In this document: piece after piece, positions 3,557 to 54,347 of the stretch
Layout: the number at the start of each line of letters is the position of its first letter
How positions within the stretch are numbered: position 1 is the first letter of the stretch
Assembly: GCF_023806625.1 (NCBI RefSeq)
Contig: NZ_JAMTDX010000112.1
Location: 1-54,347, forward strand
Length of the DNA stretch: 54,347 nt
Reading direction: 5' to 3'
Origin: Accumulibacter sp.
GTDB taxonomy: Bacteria; Pseudomonadota; Gammaproteobacteria; Burkholderiales; Rhodocyclaceae
The notes under the pieces: generated by a model
Databases searched by the model: none
Seen by the model: the letters and a program-made list of their open reading frames with translations, nothing else
What the model was told of the DNA's origin: nothing
Made by a program: the position numbers and the translations under genes

Positions 3557-5353
3557 TCAGCCTGATGCCTCCGCGTGCTCGCTGAACTGCATCGCGTGCA
3601 GGCGCGCATAGTAGCCGTCTGCGGCGAGCAGATCGGCATGGTTGCCACGTTCGACGATCCTGCCCTGGTCCATGACTACGATCAGATCTGCCCTTTCGAT
3701 CGTCGACAGGCGGTGCGCAATGACCAGCGTGGTTCGCTTGGCCATCACACGGTCGAAAGCATTCTGGATGTGGCGTTCCGATTCCGTATCGAGCGCCGAG
3801 GTCGCCTCGTCGAGGATCAGGATCGGCGCGTCCTTGAGCAGAGCCCGGGCTATCGCCAGCCGCTGGCGCTGTCCGCCGGAGAGCATCACCCCGTTCTCGC
3901 CGACAAGCGTGTCGAAACCGTCGGGCAACAGGTCGATGAACTCGCACGCGTGCGCCGCCGCAGCTGCTTCCCGGACGGCTTCGTGCGGCGCGTTGGCCAG
4001 GTCACCATAGGCGATGTTGCTCGCCACCGTGTCGTTGAACAGAACGACCTGCTGGGTCACGAGTGCGATGTGCCGCCGCAGGTTGCGCAGTGTGTAACTC
4101 TCGACGTCGATCCCGTCGATCAGAATCTGCCCGGAATCATGCTTGTAGAAGCGCGGAATCAAGCTCGCCAGCGTCGACTTGCCGCTCCCCGAGCGGCCGA
4201 CGAGAGCCACCATCTGCCCCGGCGCAACCGTGAAGCTGATGTCCTCGAGTACCGGCTGGCTGCTGCCCGGATAGGCAAAGGAGAGGTGTCTGACCTCCAG
4301 GTGGCCGGCAACGCGGTCGCGCTCTATCGTCCCATGATCCTCTTCGGGCTCTTCGTCGAGCTGGGCGAAAATGCTCTCCGCGCCGGCGAGACCGCGCTGG
4401 ATCGTCGAACTGACCTCGGAAAGCTGGCGGACAGGTTTCGGCAGCATCCCCGCCGCGGTCAGGTAGGCGACCAGGTCGCCCGCCGAAGCGTCGCCGCGCA
4501 AGAGCAGGACGAGCATCAGCAGTGCGGCCATCGCGCTGAAGGTGACCAGTTGGAGAATCTGCGTGTAGCCGGCCGTCGTACGCACCATGCGCAGTTGCTT
4601 CGCCGTGTTCTCCGCGCTCGCCGCGTGAAAGCGTCCCGACTCGTACTGCTCGCCGCCGAAGCTGCGCACGACCCGGTGCCCCTGGATCATCTCGGAAGCG
4701 ACGTGGGTCAGGTCGCCCATCGCCGCCTGGATCTTCCGACTCTGACGGCGATATTTGCGGCTCGCGCGGATGACCACCGAGCCGATCAGCGGCAGGATGG
4801 CGACGAGGACCAGCGTCAGCTTCCAGTTCATCCACAGCAGGTAGCCGAAGAGGAAGCCGATCGTCAGCCCTTCGCGTATGACGACCTTCAGCGCATCGGT
4901 CGACGCGCCGGTGACCATCGTCACGTCGTAAGTGATGCGCGAAATCAGGTGACCCGAGTTGTGATGGGCGAAATACGCGTCGGGCAGGCGCAACAGCGCG
5001 TCGAAGAGCCTGCACCGGAGGTCGTCGATCAGCCCGAGAGAGACTTTCGCGAGATAGTAGCTGCCGAGGAACGAGCCGATTCCCTGCCAGGCGATGACCA
5101 CCACGACGAGCAGCGGAACGGCGTGCATGAGGTCCAGGGGCCCGAGCCAGGGAACCGCCTGCCTCGTCGCTCCGGGGGCGGCGAGGCCATCGACGAAAAA
5201 CTTTAGAATCCCCGCGAGCATCGGTTGCGAGGAGGCGAAGATCAGGTAGCCGACGATGCTGACCGAAAACAGGCCAACGAGCGGCCGCAGATGGCTCAGC
5301 AACCGCAGATAGATGCGCAATGAAGGGAGAGGGCCAGGATCTACTGGCGACAT
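3557..5353 (-). CDS. msbA: Lipid A export ABC transporter (MsbA)
   Basis: 598-residue half-transporter, close to the usual 580-600, that flips lipid A-core across the inner membrane using ATP. The N-terminal half (about residues 1-330) is a six-helix ABC exporter membrane domain. The C-terminal ATPase has Walker A GRSGSGKST, signature LSGGQRQRLAIARALL, Walker B ILILDEATSALD and the H-loop IAHRLST. The ATG at 5353 is chosen because SPVDPGPLPSL leads straight into the first helix; an open extension of 27 codons upstream is arginine- and proline-rich and unconvincing. It is the last gene of the minus-strand lipopolysaccharide block, 174 bases after the ligase gene, which fits MsbA delivering the core to the periplasmic ligase. 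Confidence 0.93.
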   Translation of the reverse strand: MSPVDPGPLPSLRIYLRLLSHLRPLVGLFSVSIVGYLIFASSQPMLAGILKFFVDGLAAPGATRQAVPWLGPLDLMHAVPLLVVVVIAWQGIGSFLGSYYLAKVSLGLIDDLRCRLFDALLRLPDAYFAHHNSGHLISRITYDVTMVTGASTDALKVVIREGLTIGFLFGYLLWMNWKLTLVLVAILPLIGSVVIRASRKYRRQSRKIQAAMGDLTHVASEMIQGHRVVRSFGGEQYESGRFHAASAENTAKQLRMVRTTAGYTQILQLVTFSAMAALLMLVLLLRGDASAGDLVAYLTAAGMLPKPVRQLSEVSSTIQRGLAGAESIFAQLDEEPEEDHGTIERDRVAGHLEVRHLSFAYPGSSQPVLEDISFTVAPGQMVALVGRSGSGKSTLASLIPRFYKHDSGQILIDGIDVESYTLRNLRRHIALVTQQVVLFNDTVASNIAYGDLANAPHEAVREAAAAAHACEFIDLLPDGFDTLVGENGVMLSGGQRQRLAIARALLKDAPILILDEATSALDTESERHIQNAFDRVMAKRTTLVIAHRLSTIERADLIVVMDQGRIVERGNHADLLAADGYYARLHAMQFSEHAEASG

Positions 5354-7879: not shown

Positions 7880-8998
7880 TCAGCCCCCCCGATCGATCTG
7901 TTGATCGAGCAGGGCGACCACGTCTTCAGGAGTGATCGCCTTCATGCACGAATGGTGACTGCAGGTCTTCAGATAGCAATTCCGGCAAGGCAAGTCCGCC
8001 TGGATCGCGACCACTCCGTCTCCGACCGGCTTGACCCGTCGCGGATCGGTCGGACCGCAGATGACCAGCATTCGCGAACAGCTGGCCGAGGCGAGATGTG
8101 CTGTCCCGGTGTCGTTGGCCACGACGAAGCGAGCGGCTGCGGCAATCGGCGGCAGCTCGAGCAGCTTCGTCCGGCCGCAAAGGTCGACGACGCGCTCCTC
8201 GAGTCCGCGTGCAATCGCCGCGCACTCGTCGATCTCGTCGGGCCCGCCGAGCAGAACGATACGACCCAGACCTCGCCTGGTCAACAGTAGGGCGAGCCGG
8301 CGGTAGTTGTCTACCCCCCAGCGTTTGGTGAGCCCGGCCGCATGGCTGCCGGGAAGAAAGAGGGCGAACTCCCCGGGTACGACGCCGTGTTCGACGAGGA
8401 TCGCGCGCGCACGCTGGCTCTCCTCGTCGGACCAGTGAACAACCGGTCGCGCGGTCAGCGCGGGAATGCCCGCCGCCGCGAGACAGGCCCGCAGGCGCTG
8501 AAAGACGTGCGTCTCCTGCGGCATCCTCGCTGCCGAGAGATTGTACGGAAAGACCGGCAGATTGCCGATCCGCCAGCACGTTCGGCACTTCGAGCAGATC
8601 AGCGCGGACAGCAGCAGGCGCGTGCGGTCGTTGCACTGCAGGTCGACGATGAGATCGTAGTCCCCGCCACGCGCGAGCTGCAGCCAGCGCCAGGCGCCGC
8701 GAATACCCCGTTCGCTCCTGCGCAGGTCAACCGTCCAGACTCTCGAGAAGCGTGGGTCGCGGGCGAACAGCCGGTCCCACGGCGGCATCGCGTTGAGGTC
8801 GAGCTCACGGCCAGGGAACGCTCTGCAAATGTCCTCGATGATCGCCGTGCTGATCACCACGTCGCCCATACCGCCCCACTTGACGATCAGGATTCGCCTG
8901 ATCTCCGTGCGGGCCGGCAGATTCTCGATCGGCGGAGCCCCCTGCACCGGGGTCGACTCGCGGAACAACAGAACAGCCGGACGCGATGACTCAGGCAT
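7880..8998 (-). CDS. Glycosyltransferase family 9 (lipopolysaccharide heptosyltransferase)
   Basis: 372-residue GT9 enzyme. ILIVKWGGMGDVVISTAII is the N-terminal GT9 motif and VANDTGTAHLASASCSRMLVICGPTD the C-terminal donor-binding stretch. Near the C-terminus there is a cysteine cluster (PCRNCYLKTCSHHSC) of the type found in many heptosyltransferases of this family. The ATG at 8998 overlaps the stop of the upstream GT4 gene by 8 bases, so I take it in preference to an extension running a further 33 codons into that gene. It likely transfers heptose during core assembly. It is only distantly similar to the GT9 gene at 6733, so the pair probably add two different residues. Confidence 0.87.
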   Translation of the reverse strand: MPESSRPAVLLFRESTPVQGAPPIENLPARTEIRRILIVKWGGMGDVVISTAIIEDICRAFPGRELDLNAMPPWDRLFARDPRFSRVWTVDLRRSERGIRGAWRWLQLARGGDYDLIVDLQCNDRTRLLLSALICSKCRTCWRIGNLPVFPYNLSAARMPQETHVFQRLRACLAAAGIPALTARPVVHWSDEESQRARAILVEHGVVPGEFALFLPGSHAAGLTKRWGVDNYRRLALLLTRRGLGRIVLLGGPDEIDECAAIARGLEERVVDLCGRTKLLELPPIAAAARFVVANDTGTAHLASASCSRMLVICGPTDPRRVKPVGDGVVAIQADLPCRNCYLKTCSHHSCMKAITPEDVVALLDQQIDRGG

Positions 8999-10070
8999 CA
9001 GCCGCACTTCCCGCCAGCTGGCGGTAAAGCGCCCTGTACTGATCGACGACCGCTTGTCGGCCATGGTGAAGCCGAACCGTCGAGCGGCCGGCTTCACCCA
9101 GGGAAGACCGCGTCCGCTCGTCGGCGGTCAGCAACTCGCGCAGGGCACTCGCCAGATCGTCAGGTCTGGCGCAGGGAACGATCAGTCCATTGTGTTCATC
9201 GATCACGATCTCGAGAGCCCCCTGGGTTGCTGTCGATACGACGGGTTTTCCGTGAGCCCAGGCCTCGAGGATCACGTTGCCGAGCGTTTCCTGACGCGAC
9301 GGACAGACGACGATGTCGGCGATGTCGAGCACCTGCCCGATGTCGCGCTGCCAACCGGCCCAGCACAGGCGTTGACCTATGCCCAGATGCCCGGCCTGAT
9401 CACGCAGCGCAAACGCCATCTCGCCAGCTCCGGCGATCAGCAACCAGACCGGTCGCTCGCCGACCGATGGCGGCAACACTGAAAAGGCTCCGAGCAGATC
9501 GGAGAAGCCCTTGATCGGGTGCAGTCGTCCGGCAGAGACGATCAGCATCGCCTCCTCCGGAACACCGTATTGCTGGCGCAGATCGAGTCTGCGGAGGGGA
9601 TCCACGTCTTGGGCGAGATCGACGAAATTGCCGACATGGTGCACGCGACCGGCAGGGAAGCCGTTGCGCACCAGGTAGTCGCAGACTCCGGCGGTATTCC
9701 CGACCCAGGCATGCGCGTGGCGATACCCGCGCAGATTGTAGTAGCCTCCCAGCCTGGCCAGGTGAATCGGACGCCTGCCCCGTGGCAGCGAGACCAGCCG
9801 CGTCGCTCGACCCATCCAGGTCTGCACGATGGCTGGCTGGACCTGCCCGATGATCCGTTTCAGGCACCACCGCGCCCACAAGTCCCACACCCCGCGCATC
9901 CTCACATGCTGCTGCGGCAGGCCCGGCAGCAGTTCTCCGGCAACCTGGCTACACGGCTGACTGACCGCGACAAGATTCTCCCCAGCCTCGTGCAGGGCAT
10001 TCGACAGCCGGACGAAGAACGCCTCGGCACCGCCCCCACCGGTACTCCCGATGACCTGGATCACGCGCAT
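8991..10070 (-). CDS. Glycosyltransferase family 4
   Basis: 359-residue retaining GT-B glycosyltransferase. The N-terminal domain opens with MRVIQVIGSTGGGGAEAFF, with the glycine-rich acceptor loop, and the C-terminal GT1 domain has the E-x7-E motif inside PSRQETLGNVILEAWAHG followed by KPVVSTATQGALEIV. The ATG at 10070 begins the conserved first strand; the frame upstream is open but arginine-rich and overlaps the neighbouring gene. It lies 16 bases after the stop of another GT4 gene and overlaps the following GT9 gene, so it belongs to the lipopolysaccharide core operon. The sugar it transfers cannot be deduced. Confidence 0.86.
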   Translation of the reverse strand: MRVIQVIGSTGGGGAEAFFVRLSNALHEAGENLVAVSQPCSQVAGELLPGLPQQHVRMRGVWDLWARWCLKRIIGQVQPAIVQTWMGRATRLVSLPRGRRPIHLARLGGYYNLRGYRHAHAWVGNTAGVCDYLVRNGFPAGRVHHVGNFVDLAQDVDPLRRLDLRQQYGVPEEAMLIVSAGRLHPIKGFSDLLGAFSVLPPSVGERPVWLLIAGAGEMAFALRDQAGHLGIGQRLCWAGWQRDIGQVLDIADIVVCPSRQETLGNVILEAWAHGKPVVSTATQGALEIVIDEHNGLIVPCARPDDLASALRELLTADERTRSSLGEAGRSTVRLHHGRQAVVDQYRALYRQLAGSAADA

Positions 10071-47624: not shown

Positions 47625-48905
47625 ATGGCAGTGATCGTCCAGAAGTTCGGCGGTACTTCGGTCGGCTCGACCGAGCGCATCAAGAACGTCGCCCGACGCG
47701 TCGCGCGCTGGCAGGCCCAGGGACACGAGATCATCGTCGTCCCGTCGGCGATGGCCGGCGAAACGAACCGCCTGCTGGCGCTGGCCAGGGAGATCTCCTC
47801 CTCGCCCGACCCGCGCGAACTCGACGTGATCGCCGCGACCGGAGAACAGGTGACCATCGGCCTGCTCGCCGTGGCGCTGCACGAACTCGGCCTCAAGGCG
47901 AAGAGCTTCACCGGCCCGCAGGTCCGGGTCCTGACGGACAGCACCTTCACCAAGGCCCGGATCCTCAAGATCGACCAGGAAAGGATGCGCAAGGCGCTCG
48001 CCGACGGCAACGTCGTCGTCGTCGCCGGGTTCCAGGGTGCCGACGAGCACGGCAACATCACCACCCTCGGCCGCGGCGGGTCGGATACTTCGGCGGTCGC
48101 TCTGGCGGCGGCGCTGAAGGCCGACGAATGCCAGATCTACACCGACGTCGACGGCGTGTACACCACCGACCCGCGCGTCGTTCCCGAAGCACGCATGCTG
48201 GAGAGCATCACTTTCGAGGAAATGCTCGAAATGGCCAGCCTGGGCTCGAAGGTCCTGCAGATCCGTTCGGTCGAGTTCGCCGGCAAGTACAAGGTCAAAC
48301 TCCGTGTCCTGTCGAGCTTCGCGGACGAGGGAGAAGGGACGCTGATCACTGTTGAGGAAAAACGGAACATGGAACAAGCGATCATCTCGGGTATCGCCTT
48401 CAATCGCGACGAAGCCAAACTGACCATGCTCGGAGTTCCGGACCGCCCGGGGATCGCCTACCAGATCCTCGGCCCGATCGGCGAAGCGAACATCGACGTC
48501 GACATGATCATCCAGAACATCGGCCGTGACGGCACGACCGACTTCTCCTTCACGGTGAACCGCAACGACTACCGCAAGGCTCTCGGCATCCTCGACCAGA
48601 TCCGGCAGTCGATCGGCGCGCGCGAGATCGCCGGCGACAACACCATCTGCAAGGTCTCGGCGGTTGGCGTCGGCATGCGCTCGCACCCCGGGGTGGCGAG
48701 CCGGATGTTCGGCGCCCTGGCCAAGGAGAACATCAACATCCAGATGATCTCGACTTCGGAGATCAAGATCTCGGTGGTCATCGAAGAAAGGTACCTCGAG
48801 CTCGCCGTGCGCGTGCTGCACAAGGCCTTCGGGCTCGAAAAGCCGCCGAAGGCGACCCTGGGTTTGACCGGTCGCGGCGAAACCGATATCATCTCGCCCG
48901 CTTAG
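47625..48905 (+). CDS. lysC: Aspartate kinase
   Basis: 426-residue monofunctional aspartokinase, the first step of lysine, threonine and methionine synthesis. VIVQKFGGTSVGSTERIKN is the kinase opening, GFQGADEHGNITTLGRGGSD the nucleotide-binding region, and EARMLESITFEEMLEMASLG with KVLQIRSVEFA follows. Two C-terminal ACT domains (about 265-420) bind the feedback effectors, with ending LERAVRVLHKAF-like LELAVRVLHKAFGLEKPP. The ATG at 47625 has no strong ribosome site but starts the conserved sequence. The TAG stop shares its last base with the tRNA-Ser gene. Confidence 0.95.
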   Translation: MAVIVQKFGGTSVGSTERIKNVARRVARWQAQGHEIIVVPSAMAGETNRLLALAREISSSPDPRELDVIAATGEQVTIGLLAVALHELGLKAKSFTGPQVRVLTDSTFTKARILKIDQERMRKALADGNVVVVAGFQGADEHGNITTLGRGGSDTSAVALAAALKADECQIYTDVDGVYTTDPRVVPEARMLESITFEEMLEMASLGSKVLQIRSVEFAGKYKVKLRVLSSFADEGEGTLITVEEKRNMEQAIISGIAFNRDEAKLTMLGVPDRPGIAYQILGPIGEANIDVDMIIQNIGRDGTTDFSFTVNRNDYRKALGILDQIRQSIGAREIAGDNTICKVSAVGVGMRSHPGVASRMFGALAKENINIQMISTSEIKISVVIEERYLELAVRVLHKAFGLEKPPKATLGLTGRGETDIISPA

Positions 48906-48998
48906 GAGACGTGGCCGAGAGGTCGAAGGCACTCCCCTGCTAAGGGAGCATGCGGGCATAAACCTGCATCAAGGGTTCGAATCCCTTCGTCTCCGCCA
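48905..48998 (+). tRNA. tRNA-Ser(GCU)
   Basis: Class II tRNA with all arms visible: acceptor GGAGACG pairing with CGTCTCC, D arm GCC...GGC, anticodon stem CTCCC/GGGAG with loop CTGCTAA (anticodon GCT, reads AGC/AGU), a long variable arm (ATGCGGG/CCTGCAT), T arm AAGGG-TTCGAAT-CCCTT, discriminator G and an encoded CCA. The first base is the G of the lysC TAG stop, so the tRNA is probably cut out of the lysC transcript or has a promoter within lysC. The gene's 3' end marks the border to the phosphorothioation module. Confidence 0.96.
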
Positions 48999-49035
48999 GG
49001 ACACTGGCCGCAAACTCTCTGCAGCAGCCACGAAG

Positions 49036-49068
49036 ACCCCGCTCAACGCCATGTTTTGCGGGGTTTTT
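49036..49068 (+). terminator. Intrinsic terminator after tRNA-Ser
   Basis: ACCCCGC and GCGGGGT form a 7-bp stem (49036-49042, 49058-49064) around a 15-base loop, continuing directly into TTTT. It lies 37 bases after the tRNA 3' end and would end the lysC-tRNA transcript before the dnd genes. Confidence 0.8.
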
Positions 49069-49071
49069 CTT

Positions 49072-49154
49072 GTAAACCTCCTGACCTCGCCTGCCCCGCA
49101 AATGTCATATCTGCGCTCTTAGCGTCCAATTCTCTCGTAACCTCCTGACTTCGC
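49072..49154. repeat. Short imperfect direct repeat
   Basis: GTAAACCTCCTGACCTCGC at 49072-49090 and GTAACCTCCTGACTTCGC at 49137-49154: the 16-base core AACCTCCTGAC(C/T)TCGC differs at one position, with starts 64-65 bases apart. It lies in the gap after tRNA-Ser, where island borders would be expected. It does not copy the tRNA 3' end. Confidence 0.5.
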
Positions 49155-49572
49155 GAATTTGGTACGGATTTTTTAAGTGATTGTTTTCTCTTACAAATTT
49201 ACGGGTGGTGGGCGGATTTCGAGTTGGCGTGTGCTTTGGTCTTGTCGGGTACGCCATCGCGAAATGTCTGGTTGGTGTGGGGCACACGGCCATGGAAGCT
49301 GGATGATTTCGTCCTGACGCGGTCACAGCTCTGGGGCAAGCCCTAGGCGTGGAGGTAGGGGACAAACCTGCGCTTTCCATATATCTTGCAGCCAGTGGCC
49401 GACTTTTCGCCTACCTAGCACACGGTCCTTGGCCAGAGGGTGCCTCACCCTTGTACTGTCGGCGGGCGTCTTGATGGACGCCATGCGAACTTTCTGGCAC
49501 CATGACCCACGGCTCCGGCAGGCATCGAGACGGCAATGCGAGCCACATCTACTGGGCAAGATGCTAGGACAA

Positions 49573-50754
49573 ATGCATTCCATCAACGCAGCCCTTGACT
49601 TACCGATGAGCTTTTTCGTGGGCGATCGCGCACAAGTCGTCAAGGACGAGTCGATTGTCGAACGCTGGCGGGACACTGTTCGTGGTATTCGTGATGAGTA
49701 TCTAGATCCGAGCCACTGCTTCCCCTGGGTTGTCGGTTTCTCGGGTGGGAAGGATAGCACAGTCGTTGCACATGCTGTGTTCGACGCACTACTCGCCATT
49801 CCACCCTCGCAGCGTACCCGCGAAGTTCACATAGTGTCGAACGACACTATGGTTGAAAGCCCGCTGGTTATCGCTCACCTAGACGTAGTTACCAAGCACA
49901 TTGAGACAGCGGCGCAGAATCTGAACCTGCCGGTCGTCGTGGCTCGCACGCGACCAGACTTGGACAAGACCTTTTGGGTTCTCCTGATCGGCAAGGGATA
50001 TCCCAGTCCAAACATGACAATGCGCTGGTGCACTGATCGCTTAAAAATTCAACCAACCAGCGGCTACATCAAGCGCAACATCTCTGAATATGGTGCAGCG
50101 ATTGTGGTTCTGGGTGTTCGGCGCGACGAAAGCCAGACTCGCCAGCGATCAATTGATAAATCCAAGAATGCCCGAGGATCTAATCTGACACCCCACACCG
50201 ATCTGACCGGTGCCTTTATTTACCGCCCGATTGTTGACCTGACGACTGACGACGTATGGGAAATCTTGGGCTCATTCCATGCGCCTTGGGGCGGAAACCA
50301 CCGGGACCTGTTTCAGCTCTACCGAGATGCTGAAGGGGGCGAATGTCCGGTCGTGCTAAGTCAGAACGAAGCAGCGGGGTGTGGTACGAGAAATAGTCGT
50401 TTCGGCTGCTGGACCTGCACCGTGGTGGAAAAGGACAAGAGCCTGCAAGGGTTTATTGACGCAGGAAATCACCACTTCAAGCCACTGGTGGACTTCCGCG
50501 ACTGGTTGAAATCAATTCGGAACAACCCGGAAATGCGGCAGGCCCATCGTCGCAACGGTCGTCTCTCATTTGACGCTGCCGGCAGACACATCCCCGGCCC
50601 CTTTACGGTTCAGGCACGCAAGCAGATTCTGGAGTACCTACTCCGAGTTCAAGGCGAGTTGGGTGACCGCTTGATTACTGACGAAGAACTTGATCTGATC
50701 TACCAGTGTTGGACTATCGATCTGCAAAATGAAAAAGGATTAGCCAATGGCTGA
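49573..50754 (+). CDS. dndC: DNA phosphorothioation protein DndC (PAPS-reductase-like)
   Basis: About 393-residue enzyme that, in known Dnd systems, activates the DNA backbone with ATP and takes part in sulfur transfer. The PP-loop SGGKDST is at 57-63. The four or five cysteines expected to hold an iron-sulfur cluster are present: MRWCTDRLK (C153), GGECPVV (C258) and CGTRNSRFGCWTCTVVEKDKS, split as C270, C279 and C282. The last of these motifs is nearly invariant in DndC. It appears shorter than the roughly 500-residue forms I recall. Start codons at 49474, 49561, 49573 and 49606 are possible; 49573 follows AGGA and comes shortly before the conserved region. Its stop overlaps the next gene by 8 bases. 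The codon use is less GC-rich than in the genes before the tRNA. Confidence 0.9.
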   Translation: MHSINAALDLPMSFFVGDRAQVVKDESIVERWRDTVRGIRDEYLDPSHCFPWVVGFSGGKDSTVVAHAVFDALLAIPPSQRTREVHIVSNDTMVESPLVIAHLDVVTKHIETAAQNLNLPVVVARTRPDLDKTFWVLLIGKGYPSPNMTMRWCTDRLKIQPTSGYIKRNISEYGAAIVVLGVRRDESQTRQRSIDKSKNARGSNLTPHTDLTGAFIYRPIVDLTTDDVWEILGSFHAPWGGNHRDLFQLYRDAEGGECPVVLSQNEAAGCGTRNSRFGCWTCTVVEKDKSLQGFIDAGNHHFKPLVDFRDWLKSIRNNPEMRQAHRRNGRLSFDAAGRHIPGPFTVQARKQILEYLLRVQGELGDRLITDEELDLIYQCWTIDLQNEKGLANG

Positions 50755-50962
50755 TGGACACTTTGAAGAGGCCTATTTAAGCGACCTGCCCTTGTGGGCA
50801 GATGACCGTGCCCGTGCGGCGATGGAAAAGGTTTGCGAAAGGCATGGTGTTCCCGTTGATGTGCTTACCGAACTCGTGATGGTTCAACGGGAGCGTCAAC
50901 ATCAGGAACGGGCGCACGGCATCTACCAACGCTTCGAAGAAATTCTCGGTCGCATCGAATAA
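50747..50962 (+). CDS. Small protein encoded between dndC and dndD
   Basis: 71-residue, mostly helical, charged protein with LPLWADDRARAAMEKVCERHGV near the N-terminus (core WADDRARAAMEKV) and a strongly charged helix VMVQRERQHQERAHGIYQRFEE-like toward the end (QRERQHQERAHGIYQRFE). Its ATG overlaps the dndC stop (ATGGCTGA), and dndD begins 18 bases later behind a GGGGGAGG ribosome site. I believe similar small ORFs in the same place are annotated elsewhere as DNA-modification-system-associated small proteins; no function is known to me. It may be a structural partner of DndC or DndD. Confidence 0.75.
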   Translation: MADGHFEEAYLSDLPLWADDRARAAMEKVCERHGVPVDVLTELVMVQRERQHQERAHGIYQRFEEILGRIE

Positions 50963-50980: not shown

Positions 50981-53056
50981 ATGTGGATTTCAAGACTCGA
51001 GCTGACATGCTTCAAAGGCTATCAGCATCAGGTCTTTGTGTTCCCGGAACCAGCCGACGGCAGAAATATAGTGCTGATCGGAGGCATGAACGGGTATGGT
51101 AAGACATCGATTCTTGAGGCGCTCTATCTCTGTCTGTACGGCAAGGACGCGATGGTTCACCTGGCGCGGGCAGGGCTAAGGACTGACCACAAGAAGGGGT
51201 ACCCCACCCTTTTGGAAAGCGCATTCAACGGCGAGGCACTGCGTAGCTCCCTCGACACCATGAGTGTTCGAGTCACTATCAACAAAACGACGACCAAGGC
51301 TATCGACATTGGCCGGAAATGGTACTTCAGAGCCAATGGAACCTGGACCAATGAGGAAGAAGCGGTAGTACGCGAAGTCGTTCGCGGTGTTCCAGACACT
51401 CCCAGACAAGACGGCCGAAAGGGGTTCCATCTGGCAGATTTGCTGGACGACATTCAGTTTGTTCCTGCCCACATTGCCCCGTTCTTCTTTTTTGATGGTG
51501 AGGAAGTGAAGAAGCTCGCTGACCAGTCACGGCTCGAACAAATAAAGCAGGGTCTTGAGGGTTTGCTTGGCGTGGTCTTGTTGCGCTCTTTGGCCGAACG
51601 CCTGAAGAGTTTCGAGGCAAACAAGCGGGGTGAGATCGAATCTGTCGATGAAGAAAATCTTGCAAGACTGCTCGATGCGCTGACGGCAAACAAAGAGCAG
51701 CTTAAGGCACTCAAGGAGGATGCCGAGCAAAATGAGGTCGAGCGGCAACGTCTGCGCGCCGAGCAGCAATCACTGATCGAGCGCATCACTGCAGCTGGTG
51801 GTGGTGGCGGGGAGATCGCCACGGTCAAAGACTTGGTGGAGGAGCGCGAGCAGTTGCGCAGCAAGCTTAGGGACAGTCGGCGAAGTCTAGAGGAGATTCT
51901 GTCAGGACGGCTGCCGTTTCACCTGTTACCGAAAGACCTGTTGGATGATTTCCGTCGACAACTGGTTGCTGAAATGAAGCTGGCTGAGTGGGATGCCGAA
52001 AAGCGCGCCCTAGAGCCACGCAAGGCTGAGTTTGAGGCTGCATTCATGGCGCAAACCACTCCCATAATCGAACCCGGCTTGACTCGCGATCAACTCAGCG
52101 CGATTAGGGGGCGTCTTGAGGCTGCTTGGGCTAGTCTCTTCTATCCACCACCTGAAGACTGCGCGAAAGAAGTTGTTCACGGCTGTCTGCGTGAAACCCT
52201 GCGGCAGAAGGCGTTGGACTTTATGGAGACCATCAATCTCGGGCAGCGCGAGATTCACGACCTACTTAATGATCAGCACGCCTTGCAGCAACGAATCGAC
52301 GAGCTTGGTCGAAAAGTTTCGCGGCTTGAAGGTATAGACCGCGACGGTACTCTGGCAATTCTAAAAACTAGGCTCAATGACATTCTGAGTCAGCTGGATA
52401 CTCTCGCAGAGCGTATTCGAACTGACAACAGGAAGTTCGATACCCTTCAATCCCAGGTGCAGTCGCAGACAGCCGAATACTGCCGCGAGAAGAACGAGCT
52501 CGACAAATCAAGTCCAGTACGCGCAACGATTGACAGGTCTGAACGTGTTCGCCGCGTCATTGACGAACTGGTTCCTGCGCTCTTCCCGCTTAAGGTGCGC
52601 GAACTGGCGACGGCGATGACTACCGTCTACAAGCAACTTGCCCACAAGGATCAAGTCGACAAGATCACCATACTTGACGATGGTACGACCCAAATACGTG
52701 GCAAGACTGGCAAGGAAATTACGTTCGAGCGGTCTGCTGGCGAAAACCAGATCTTTGCCACAGCACTGATTGCGGGCTTGGCAAAAGTGTCTGGGGTGAA
52801 GGCGCCGATGGTGGTGGATACGCCCTTGGGCCGGTTGGACAGCAAACATCGGGAGAACATCCTCAAGTTTTGGACCGGGGACAAGAGCCGGCAAGTCATC
52901 CTGCTATCGCAAGACGAGGAAATCGACTTCCATTTTTACAAGTCCATTCAAGACAGTGTAGGTAAGACCTACTTGCTTGAACACGTCGATGTCGGTGACG
53001 GAATTGGGCGCACCACGGCGATTGAAGATTTGTATTTTGCTAGGGGTCGTCGGTGA
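50981..53056 (+). CDS. dndD: DNA phosphorothioation protein DndD (SMC-like ATPase)
   Basis: 691-residue RecF/SMC-type ATPase, the usual size for DndD, which in studied systems has ATPase/nicking activity linked to insertion of sulfur into DNA. The N-terminal head opens ISRLELTCFKGYQHQVF and has the P-loop GMNGYGKT (residues 35-42). FFFFDGEEVKKLAD is a family mark. A long coiled coil covers about 190-560. The C-terminal head has ERSAGENQIFATALIAGLAK (signature) and MVVDTPLGRLDSKHREN (Walker B and D-loop, about 610-620). It overlaps the next gene by four bases (GTGA). An ABC-ATPase of another defence system is unlikely given the dndC and DndE-domain neighbours. Confidence 0.9.
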   Translation: MWISRLELTCFKGYQHQVFVFPEPADGRNIVLIGGMNGYGKTSILEALYLCLYGKDAMVHLARAGLRTDHKKGYPTLLESAFNGEALRSSLDTMSVRVTINKTTTKAIDIGRKWYFRANGTWTNEEEAVVREVVRGVPDTPRQDGRKGFHLADLLDDIQFVPAHIAPFFFFDGEEVKKLADQSRLEQIKQGLEGLLGVVLLRSLAERLKSFEANKRGEIESVDEENLARLLDALTANKEQLKALKEDAEQNEVERQRLRAEQQSLIERITAAGGGGGEIATVKDLVEEREQLRSKLRDSRRSLEEILSGRLPFHLLPKDLLDDFRRQLVAEMKLAEWDAEKRALEPRKAEFEAAFMAQTTPIIEPGLTRDQLSAIRGRLEAAWASLFYPPPEDCAKEVVHGCLRETLRQKALDFMETINLGQREIHDLLNDQHALQQRIDELGRKVSRLEGIDRDGTLAILKTRLNDILSQLDTLAERIRTDNRKFDTLQSQVQSQTAEYCREKNELDKSSPVRATIDRSERVRRVIDELVPALFPLKVRELATAMTTVYKQLAHKDQVDKITILDDGTTQIRGKTGKEITFERSAGENQIFATALIAGLAKVSGVKAPMVVDTPLGRLDSKHRENILKFWTGDKSRQVILLSQDEEIDFHFYKSIQDSVGKTYLLEHVDVGDGIGRTTAIEDLYFARGRR

Positions 53057-54347
53057 GCGAACTGAACATACAGCAAGTACTCAATTCGCGCTTCCGCACG
53101 AGTGCCGAGGCTGACCGGATTACCGTTGCACTGATGGGCAATCTTGGCCTTTCGACCAAGGCAAACGTGGCACGTCTGGCCATCGGCCGCTCCCTAGCTC
53201 TGGGCAGTTTCGCCGATGAAGGGATTGACGCGAAGGGACTTGAGATTCCAGCCGCATCCCTCTTTACTCAGGAAGACATTGGCGTGTGGGTGGGAGTGAT
53301 TGTCACCCATGCCTGTCGACATGGCCTCGCTCCGATTGATTCGATGGACTCTTTTCGTGCGGCCGTAAGGAAGCATTGGCATCGGGGTGCGGCCTTATTG
53401 CTTCAGGACTGGGAGGCCGCCGATGGCGACTTCGACAAGTTCCTCGAGACGTTAATTGTCCGCCGCGCGGAGTTGCCGGAAGGTACGCCGCGTTCGGTTA
53501 CGAAGAACCCGGAATCCGCGATGGTCGAAAAGCCGACTGATATCTCGGCAGCACTCGTGAGAGCGCTTGCGGAAATTGGAGTGACGGCGGAAGTTCGCGG
53601 ATTCACGCACGGGCCGCGTGTGACGCGCTACAAGGTCTATCTTGCCGATGTTAACCAGAAACCAAAACTGGAAAGAGGCATGGATCGTCTGAGTCTTGTC
53701 CTTAACCTGCAAAAAGCGAAGCCGACGCTTGGTCCCGGCGAAGAAGCAAAAACCATCAGTCTCGATGTGCCGCGGCCCGAGGATACTTGGCAACCGGTGC
53801 TTTTCGCGCGCCTGCGCGAGTGGGCTGCATCAACGCCAGTTGAGGAAGGGAAGTTGGTGGTCTTTCCCGGAGTGGACGTGTTGGGCATTCCGTATTCGTT
53901 TGACTTGGCTGCGGCACCACACTTGCTGGTGGGTGGAACGACTGGTAGTGGCAAGAGTGTCTGCCTGCATTCGCTCATTCTGTCACTGATTCTACGCCTC
54001 CCGCCTTCGCTACTCCAACTTGCGCTGATAGATCCGAAACAAGTGGAGTTTGCCGTCTATGAAGGCAGCAGTTACCTCTATGGCGGTGACGTGGCCGTAG
54101 ATGTTTCCATGGCGCGCGAACGCATTCTGGAACTTGTTGCCGAGATGGATTCCCGCTATCAGCGTTTCATGACGCTCGGCGTTACTAACATCACCGAGGC
54201 GCGGCGGCGCGGAATGGCATTGCCATACATCGCGGTTTTCATCGAGGAACTCGCCGACCTCATCCTGCAAGACCGCGATATTGAGGAGCACATCGTTACC
54301 GTGAAAGCCCCCCGAGGTAGCGACGTGCCTATGCCTGCTGACGAGCA
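53053..54347 (+). CDS. DndE domain fused to FtsK/SpoIIIE-type DNA translocase, 3'-partial
   Basis: 431 residues are visible and the frame runs off the window. Residues 1-120 resemble DndE, the small tetrameric DNA-binding protein of phosphorothioation: FRTSAEADRITVALMGNLGL, ARLAIGRSLALGS and the C-terminal FRAAVRKHWHRGAALLLQDW. A linker leads into an FtsK beta-like region (about 165-275: ALAEIGVTAEV, HGPRVTRYKVYLA) and the motor domain with FDLAAAPHLLVGGTTGSGKS (Walker A 295-302), LIDPKQVEFAVYEG, EMDSRYQRFM and PYIAVFIEELADL (Walker B, 392-403). GTG at 53053 overlaps the dndD stop and is the only start upstream of the DndE region. It should bind and pump DNA during modification. Residues after about 415 no longer follow the family. 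Confidence 0.85.
   Translation, partial: MSELNIQQVLNSRFRTSAEADRITVALMGNLGLSTKANVARLAIGRSLALGSFADEGIDAKGLEIPAASLFTQEDIGVWVGVIVTHACRHGLAPIDSMDSFRAAVRKHWHRGAALLLQDWEAADGDFDKFLETLIVRRAELPEGTPRSVTKNPESAMVEKPTDISAALVRALAEIGVTAEVRGFTHGPRVTRYKVYLADVNQKPKLERGMDRLSLVLNLQKAKPTLGPGEEAKTISLDVPRPEDTWQPVLFARLREWAASTPVEEGKLVVFPGVDVLGIPYSFDLAAAPHLLVGGTTGSGKSVCLHSLILSLILRLPPSLLQLALIDPKQVEFAVYEGSSYLYGGDVAVDVSMARERILELVAEMDSRYQRFMTLGVTNITEARRRGMALPYIAVFIEELADLILQDRDIEEHIVTVKAPRGSDVPMPADE

Follow-up and report, generated by a model that had tools for sequence, protein, structure and literature searches.

A dnd operon of Accumulibacter sp. and its relatives encoding a DndE domain joined to an FtsK-type motor

Operon layout and domain make-up of the fused gene

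The window analysed here, a stretch of 54,347 nucleotides from Accumulibacter sp., is an entire contig (C112; NZ_JAMTDX010000112.1) of a 4.09 Mb genome in 114 contigs (GCF_023806625.1), and at its end lie, in this order, dndC, a gene for a protein of 71 amino acids (aa), dndD and dndE-ftsK, the last gene of the operon (Table 1). The dndE-ftsK frame begins with a GTG codon at 53053, in a 4-base overlap with the dndD stop. A first-pass annotation had read it as a single frame, 53053..54347, in which a DndE-like N-terminus is followed by a motor with an FtsK-type beta region, Walker A and Walker B. The frame is indeed open throughout and both parts were recovered, with Glu in place of Asp in Walker B, but the fusion itself extends only to base 54294 and the last 53 bases belong to an insertion element.

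Table 1 Features of the operon region at the end of the window
Feature	Position	Strand	Basis or remark
tRNA-Ser (anticodon gct)	48905..48998	+	ARAGORN; upstream boundary of the operon region
dndC, sulfurtransferase	49606..50754 (alternative start 49573)	+	TIGR03183
71-aa gene	50747..50962	+	Weak matches to tails of DndC models; 8-base overlap with dndC
dndD, ABC-type ATPase with coiled coil	50981..53056	+	TIGR03185; PADLOC PbeC model PDLC02733
dndE-ftsK residues 1-414, cut by insertion	53053..54294	+	Remaining 100 residues at C52:20994-21296, minus strand
DndE domain, residues 13-120	53089..53412	+	Pfam PF08870; hhalign
FtsK alpha domain, residues 159-240	53527..53772	+	Pfam PF17854
FtsK beta (motor) domain, part inside the window, residues 258-402	53824..54258	+	Pfam PF01580
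Walker A GGTTGSGKS, residues 294-302	53932..53958	+	Invariant columns in alignments A1 and A3
Walker B IAVFIEE, residues 393-399	54229..54249	+	Glu replaces the usual first Asp
Left end of multi-copy insertion element, contig end	54295..54347	.	Repeat at other contig ends

Against the Pfam DndE model, the N-terminal domain scored 23.4 bits by hmmscan and, when the genome was searched, 26.8 bits, on either side of the cut-off of 25, and 21 of the 23 rows of the fusion alignment matched this model at E ≤ 0.01. A profile of 23 fusion N-termini aligned with a set of five other DndE domains (four standalone and one fused) over 128 columns with an hhalign probability of 99.3 and an E value of 9.3e-21; judged by this profile-profile comparison, the DndE assignment is firm. 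The predicted structure of the full-length relative L029 (pLDDT 84.8; residues 1-414 are 85% identical to the window copy) likewise displays a DndE layout joined to an FtsK motor. Its N-terminal domain consists of two strand-helix-helix units, a long helix and one further helix, which is the DndE layout according to PMC10853773. The fusion's loops of 4 and 8 residues are similar to those of DndE clade-1 in that source, the DndD-linked kind, and its last DndE helix, of 13 residues, falls between both DndE clades described there.

The motor scored 26.9 bits on FtsK_alpha (cut-off 22.9) and 108.4 bits on FtsK_SpoIIIE (cut-off 24), and FtsK alpha was matched by all 23 rows of alignment A3 at E ≤ 0.01. 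Walker A columns 295, 297, 298 and 300-302 are invariant in both alignments, and an ATQRP motif is present in 22 of the 23 rows of A3, the exception being the window's cut copy, whose motif stretch sits on contig C52. The predicted fold is that of a near-complete FtsK alpha+beta motor; on these Pfam matches and this fold we rejected a HerA-type motor, which the first-pass annotation had considered beside a true FtsK. In the motor tree, a branch with 100/100 support separates 31 DndE-linked motors from 13 FtsK rows, with a warning from the program about long branches; cellular FtsK is encoded elsewhere in the genomes and falls on the opposite side of this branch, so an ordinary chromosomal ftsK was rejected as well. 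Loci L064 (wrong frame) and L073 were omitted from the tree and the second tree, respectively, and L025 and L045 (uncertain starts) from A3. A DndH search with TIGR03238 gave a match in 1 of 185 class genomes, at a contig end, and the motor tree therefore contains no DndH motors.

Directly after the beta domain, at 507-519 aa, the 25 full-length fusions end, and Pfam scans of the window frame and of the 23 rows matched no nuclease domain in the fusion. Within PADLOC, the best matches of the motor are SspH models (80.8 bits for the window, 179.1 bits for a full-length relative); across 25 genomes, the SspH profile matched the fusions plus other frames of 719-1315 aa, which we take for cellular FtsK. 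Compared with six near relatives, dN was 0.065-0.182 for the DndE domain and 0.057-0.150 for the motor, with dS values of at least 2.2 or incomputable, and these rates indicate that both domains have been retained by long-term purifying selection. For the linker, dN against near relatives was 0.48-0.80, with dN/dS of 0.29-0.68 where computable.

Relatives of the fusion and census of DndE

A scan of genome contigs, in which the N-terminal alignment was applied as two short peptide patterns and distant relatives are therefore missed, located the DndE-FtsK fusion at 24 genome loci. Four close records came from PLSDB, including a pair of R. phaseoli plasmids that do not differ in length, and each of the three plasmid loci examined has the same fusion. 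The gene immediately upstream is dndD at 22 of the 24 genome loci and at all three plasmid loci; dndC is present at 20 of the 24, the remaining four being short contigs, and the 71-aa gene at 19, the misses comprising four short contigs and the disordered locus L025. At L025, the place of dndD, behind an incomplete dndC and ahead of the fusion, is taken by a different frame of 365 aa (8283-9380, +), and at L044 (7936-10004, +) dndD is split over two overlapping frames. The N-terminal profile (E ≤ 1e-10) matched 1 of 398 genomes in a phylum sample, the window's own, and the DndE-FtsK group is thus rare; in phages, no relative of the fusion N-terminus was found at E ≤ 1e-5.

With the DndE profile (E ≤ 0.01), 23 of the 24 fusion genomes gave a total of 24 matches, each in a frame of 516-575 aa, and G050 gave none despite carrying the fusion. 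The fusion is the sole match to the Pfam DndE profile in 22 of the 24 genomes, and no standalone DndE was seen in any of them with this profile, which a divergent one could escape. Genome G029 has a second match, a frame of 515 aa in which DndE is fused to an AAA_10-like motor (48% identical to that of L086) and which follows a dndC and a dndD of its own; because it belongs to a separate dnd operon, it leaves the odds of the readings weighed below unchanged. In a class sample of 369 genomes, six had a DndE match, three in frames of 116-143 aa and three in long frames, namely the window itself and L085 and L086 with their TrwB/HerA-like or AAA_10-like motors.

Frames in which DndE is joined to TrwB/HerA-like and AAA_10-like motors were seen at L085 (6715-8253, -), L086 (6547-8031, -) and L100 (2723-4270, -), the last of which shares genome G029 with a DndE-FtsK locus, and their sequences suggest several separate motor fusions to DndE. 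A second DndE-FtsK subtype with a divergent DndE occurs at L074, L075, L076 and L058 (same genus) and at L006 (a Mesorhizobium plasmid). Downstream of it lies an AAA_21-type ATPase, with AriA/PtuA-like scores in the two that were scanned, followed, where the contig extends, by a protein without a family match. At L026, labelled as a Bacteroidia metagenome-assembled genome, the fusion is 93% identical to the Rhodocyclaceae copy L029, which reflects either a recent transfer or a misbinned contig.

DndC, the 71-aa protein, DndD and TusA

DndC (TIGR03183, 370.2 bits, cut-off 290.4) and DndD (TIGR03185, 276.4 bits, cut-off 245.85) both score above the curated NCBI equivalog cut-offs by which a Dnd phosphorothioation (PT) system is recognised, and five Cys columns of DndC are conserved in 23 of 23 rows. 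The DndC match covers model positions 12-361 of 447 only, and the window protein is without the C-terminal tail of longer DndC proteins. Weak matches of the 71-aa protein to DndC models all fall at their C-terminal end (TIGR03183 positions 384-444, E = 9e-4; PRK06850, E = 0.005; PDLC02661, E = 7e-4; PDLC02662, E = 0.001), and it also weakly matches a PbeB model (E = 0.007). When a profile of 23 proteins of this type was set against three long DndC proteins, two gave weak, colinear matches in the tail (8.0 and 5.5 bits) and the third, L085, gave none there. In E. coli DndC, residues 433-482 are the DndD-binding part, and point mutations there break the DndC-DndD pair (PMC12193691); we infer that the 71-aa protein may be the detached DndD-docking tail of DndC.

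The specificity loop of DndC reads N-x-T in 17 of 23 rows (NMT in the window, NQT in L034) and N-x-Q in the other six, which is near the printed Asn-Gln-Thr and unlike the printed Thr-Arg-Ser and Arg-x-Lys/Arg (PMC12193691). Asn-Gln-Thr or Thr-Gln-Asn is linked to GATC in that source; since NMT is not one of the cases given there, GATC as the target site here is a guess.

Among 27 DndD rows from 26 loci, none has a Zn-hook Cys pair at the coiled-coil apex and three single Cys columns occur; identity with the CxC/Pbe ATPase was rejected for lack of this pair, notwithstanding the PbeC label that PADLOC attaches to DndD. At 7 of 27 loci, every one of them alphaproteobacterial (L003, L004, L035, L036, L037, L039 and L041; BLAST with one query), a TusA-like gene lies behind the fusion, and that of L003 scored 48.1 bits on the TusA model, below the cut-off of 78. 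The main text of PMC10853773, as far as available, makes no mention of TusA, and PMC9239217, returned by a literature search for TusA and DndC, has a passage that deals with tRNA thiolation.

Interruption by a multi-copy element

Likeness of the window copy to full-length relatives ends at residue 414. The stretch from base 54295 to the contig end also terminates contigs C81, C85, C89 and C96, in each case beside a different, unrelated flank, so the last 17 codons of the frame derive from an insertion element. The missing C-terminal part lies at the end of contig C52 and is 95% identical to L029 residues 414-513; it adjoins another repeat, the element's other end, which is also terminal on contigs C3, C46, C69 and C83. 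GTTA stands at all junctions seen, being carried by five of five left ends and following five of five right ends, and GTTAGGC is found on the right side in four of five junctions; no terminal inverted repeat of the element was obvious by eye. These ends argue that the gene was most likely split by a multi-copy element with a preferred target. A frameshift as the source of the mismatching C-terminus was rejected, given the tail on C52 and the recurrence of both element ends, and an integron cassette or IS200/IS605-type element was considered by eye and dropped. Since the gene is interrupted, the window's copy is probably inactive or truncated; intact copies are present in relatives, among them the operon on a plasmid of Aureimonas sp. 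AU20, which includes a tusA-like gene.

Relation to described systems

The canonical DndCDE loci L082 and L083 have the same DndC, DndD and DndE set, with a standalone DndE of 127 and 116 aa and with DndC frames, of 526 and 536 aa, that include the tail, whereas here DndE bears the motor and a gene of its own encodes the tail-like part. Cellular FtsK/SpoIIIE has the alpha and beta motor domains, the Walker motifs and the fold in common with the fusion, but identity is 36-41%, a gamma match is lacking and DndE replaces the N-terminal part. The proteins at L085, L086 and L100 have the same DndE N-terminus in a frame of about 500 aa, with motors of other families. DndEi, a DndE with a helicase domain, is said to have been studied by Zheng in 2016 (J Biol Chem); the first-pass annotation placed it in Riemerella. 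By its description, DndEi likewise unites DndE with a motor in a single protein with a link to PT modification (PMC7464106), and in G029, which carries the label Bacteroidia, the frame joining DndE to an AAA_10-like motor is a possible candidate for this type.

A HerA/FtsK motor fused to DndE, beside a DndD-related ATPase, has been described for a subset of Dnd systems, clade-3 (PMC10853773; Rakesh, Aravind, Krishnan 2024, citing Krishnan 2020). The architecture and the neighbour are the same as here, a single polypeptide that combines DndE with the motor next to an ABC ATPase related to DndD, and the likeness to clade-3 is one of architecture, the motor tree being without DndH motors. That source otherwise limits FtsK alpha, matched throughout our fusion rows, to some DndH proteins, to classical FtsK and to a single set linked to Orc/CDC6. 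With the fusion already in print and DndEi already studied, a DndE-FtsK fusion is not new, and the window gene is a member of a small and conserved family of operons that the literature already mentions; the first-pass interpretation is supported in part. Among the results of literature searches on DndE with FtsK, translocase or HerA, we recognised no further work treating the fusion beyond PMC10853773; in the part of the literature consulted, we did not meet a DndC tail split off in this way, the link with TusA, the group's loop pattern or the fusion as the only DndE.

Proposed function and alternatives

From the domain make-up, the operon, the predicted motor fold, the fusion as only DndE match in most relatives and the purifying selection on it, we consider it probable that the gene product serves as the DndE subunit of a DNA PT system and bears an FtsK-type double-strand DNA translocase of its own. 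Assembly, translocation, the order of steps and the PT chemistry in these hosts would then run as follows. DndC would replace oxygen by sulfur that a cysteine desulfurase passes on, perhaps via TusA in the case of alphaproteobacteria; the 71-aa protein would dock DndC to DndD, and the DndE domain would bind DndD and touch DNA; and the FtsK part would form a ring on DNA, with ATP-driven threading or scanning of the duplex past the DndC active site. By such motor action sites would be found, or the complex would be moved on after modification.

Several observations weigh against this proposal. PT in these hosts is a prediction from their genes. On the NCBIfam DndE equivalog (TIGR03184), the fusion scored 17.5 bits against a cut-off of 71.85, which makes it a DndE-domain protein and not a canonical DndE; the Pfam DndE cut-off is reached by 11 of 24 relatives; the N-terminal profile matched no solved structure among PDB sequences at E ≤ 10; and the N-terminal domain modelled alone had a pLDDT of 46 and was unusable. 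The first Asp position of Walker B is Glu in 18 of 23 rows and Asp in the other five, and a whole Pfam scan of the 23 rows gave no match to a gamma (DNA-sequence-reading) domain, which steers cellular FtsK and for which Pfam contains a model. The PADLOC model matched by DndD, at 960.1 bits, bears the restriction-side name PbeC.

The Walker B substitution and the lack of a gamma match would also suit a motor that is structural and not processive, in which FtsK is an ATP-gated clamp or an oligomer scaffold loading DndCDE with no long-range translocation, and the DndCDE prediction in PMC12193691 already rings DNA. We regard such a motor as rather unlikely, given how strongly Walker A and the motor core are conserved and that an almost complete FtsK alpha+beta motor is predicted. 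The PbeC label, the SspH models as the motor's best PADLOC match and the additional AAA_21 ATPase and unknown protein downstream in the sister group are what one would expect of a fusion with a restriction role comparable to that of DndH or PbeABCD, whose motor would travel along invader DNA that lacks the modification, blocking or processing it, and whose DndE domain would serve as site sensor. This is unlikely, however, because the sulfurtransferase gene dndC shares the operon at every genome locus whose contig is long enough, the fusion has no nuclease domain match, and a restriction-only role for what is nearly always the sole DndE match would leave modification without DndE. A contig that terminates within the gene might suggest a fusion made by chance or assembly, or a mere ftsK, but the comparative data refute this and its probability is negligible: the same fusion recurs at 24 genome and three plasmid loci, and cellular FtsK lies elsewhere, across the 100/100 branch.

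The preferred reading, a DndE subunit with its own translocase, extends more tentatively to a distinct PT subtype, which we hold to be possible rather than probable. In it, a DNA-tracking DndE-FtsK ring would stand as DndE, DndC would be split into a catalytic body and a DndD-docking peptide, and an Asn-x-Thr/Asn-x-Gln loop would read a GATC-like or other site. If so, DNA sulfuration would proceed processively, tied to replication or to the entry of DNA, and would not depend on a diffusive search. A translocase-bearing DndE makes travel of the modification complex along DNA directly testable, which bears on how DndCDE locates its sites; the split DndC tail would offer a small, separable handle on DndC-DndD docking, and the DndC loop residues yield a checkable sequence prediction.

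Neighbouring features

The tRNA-Ser gene upstream of the operon is a possible candidate for an island attachment site. Window positions 48993-49283, from the last 6 bases of this tRNA onward, recur on contig C86 at 3750-4039 (locus L087; 80%, 234/293 columns), and this recurring stretch may mark an island boundary; no tRNA was present within the 8 kb of C86 examined. DGQHR proteins were found in 15 of 25 genomes, the window's own genome being without them. Behind the fusion tail on contig C52 (L019) are genes that, from their translations by eye, resemble those for a RecD-type helicase, a serine recombinase, an SNF2-type helicase and a DNA polymerase, which suggests a phage- or element-like neighbourhood.

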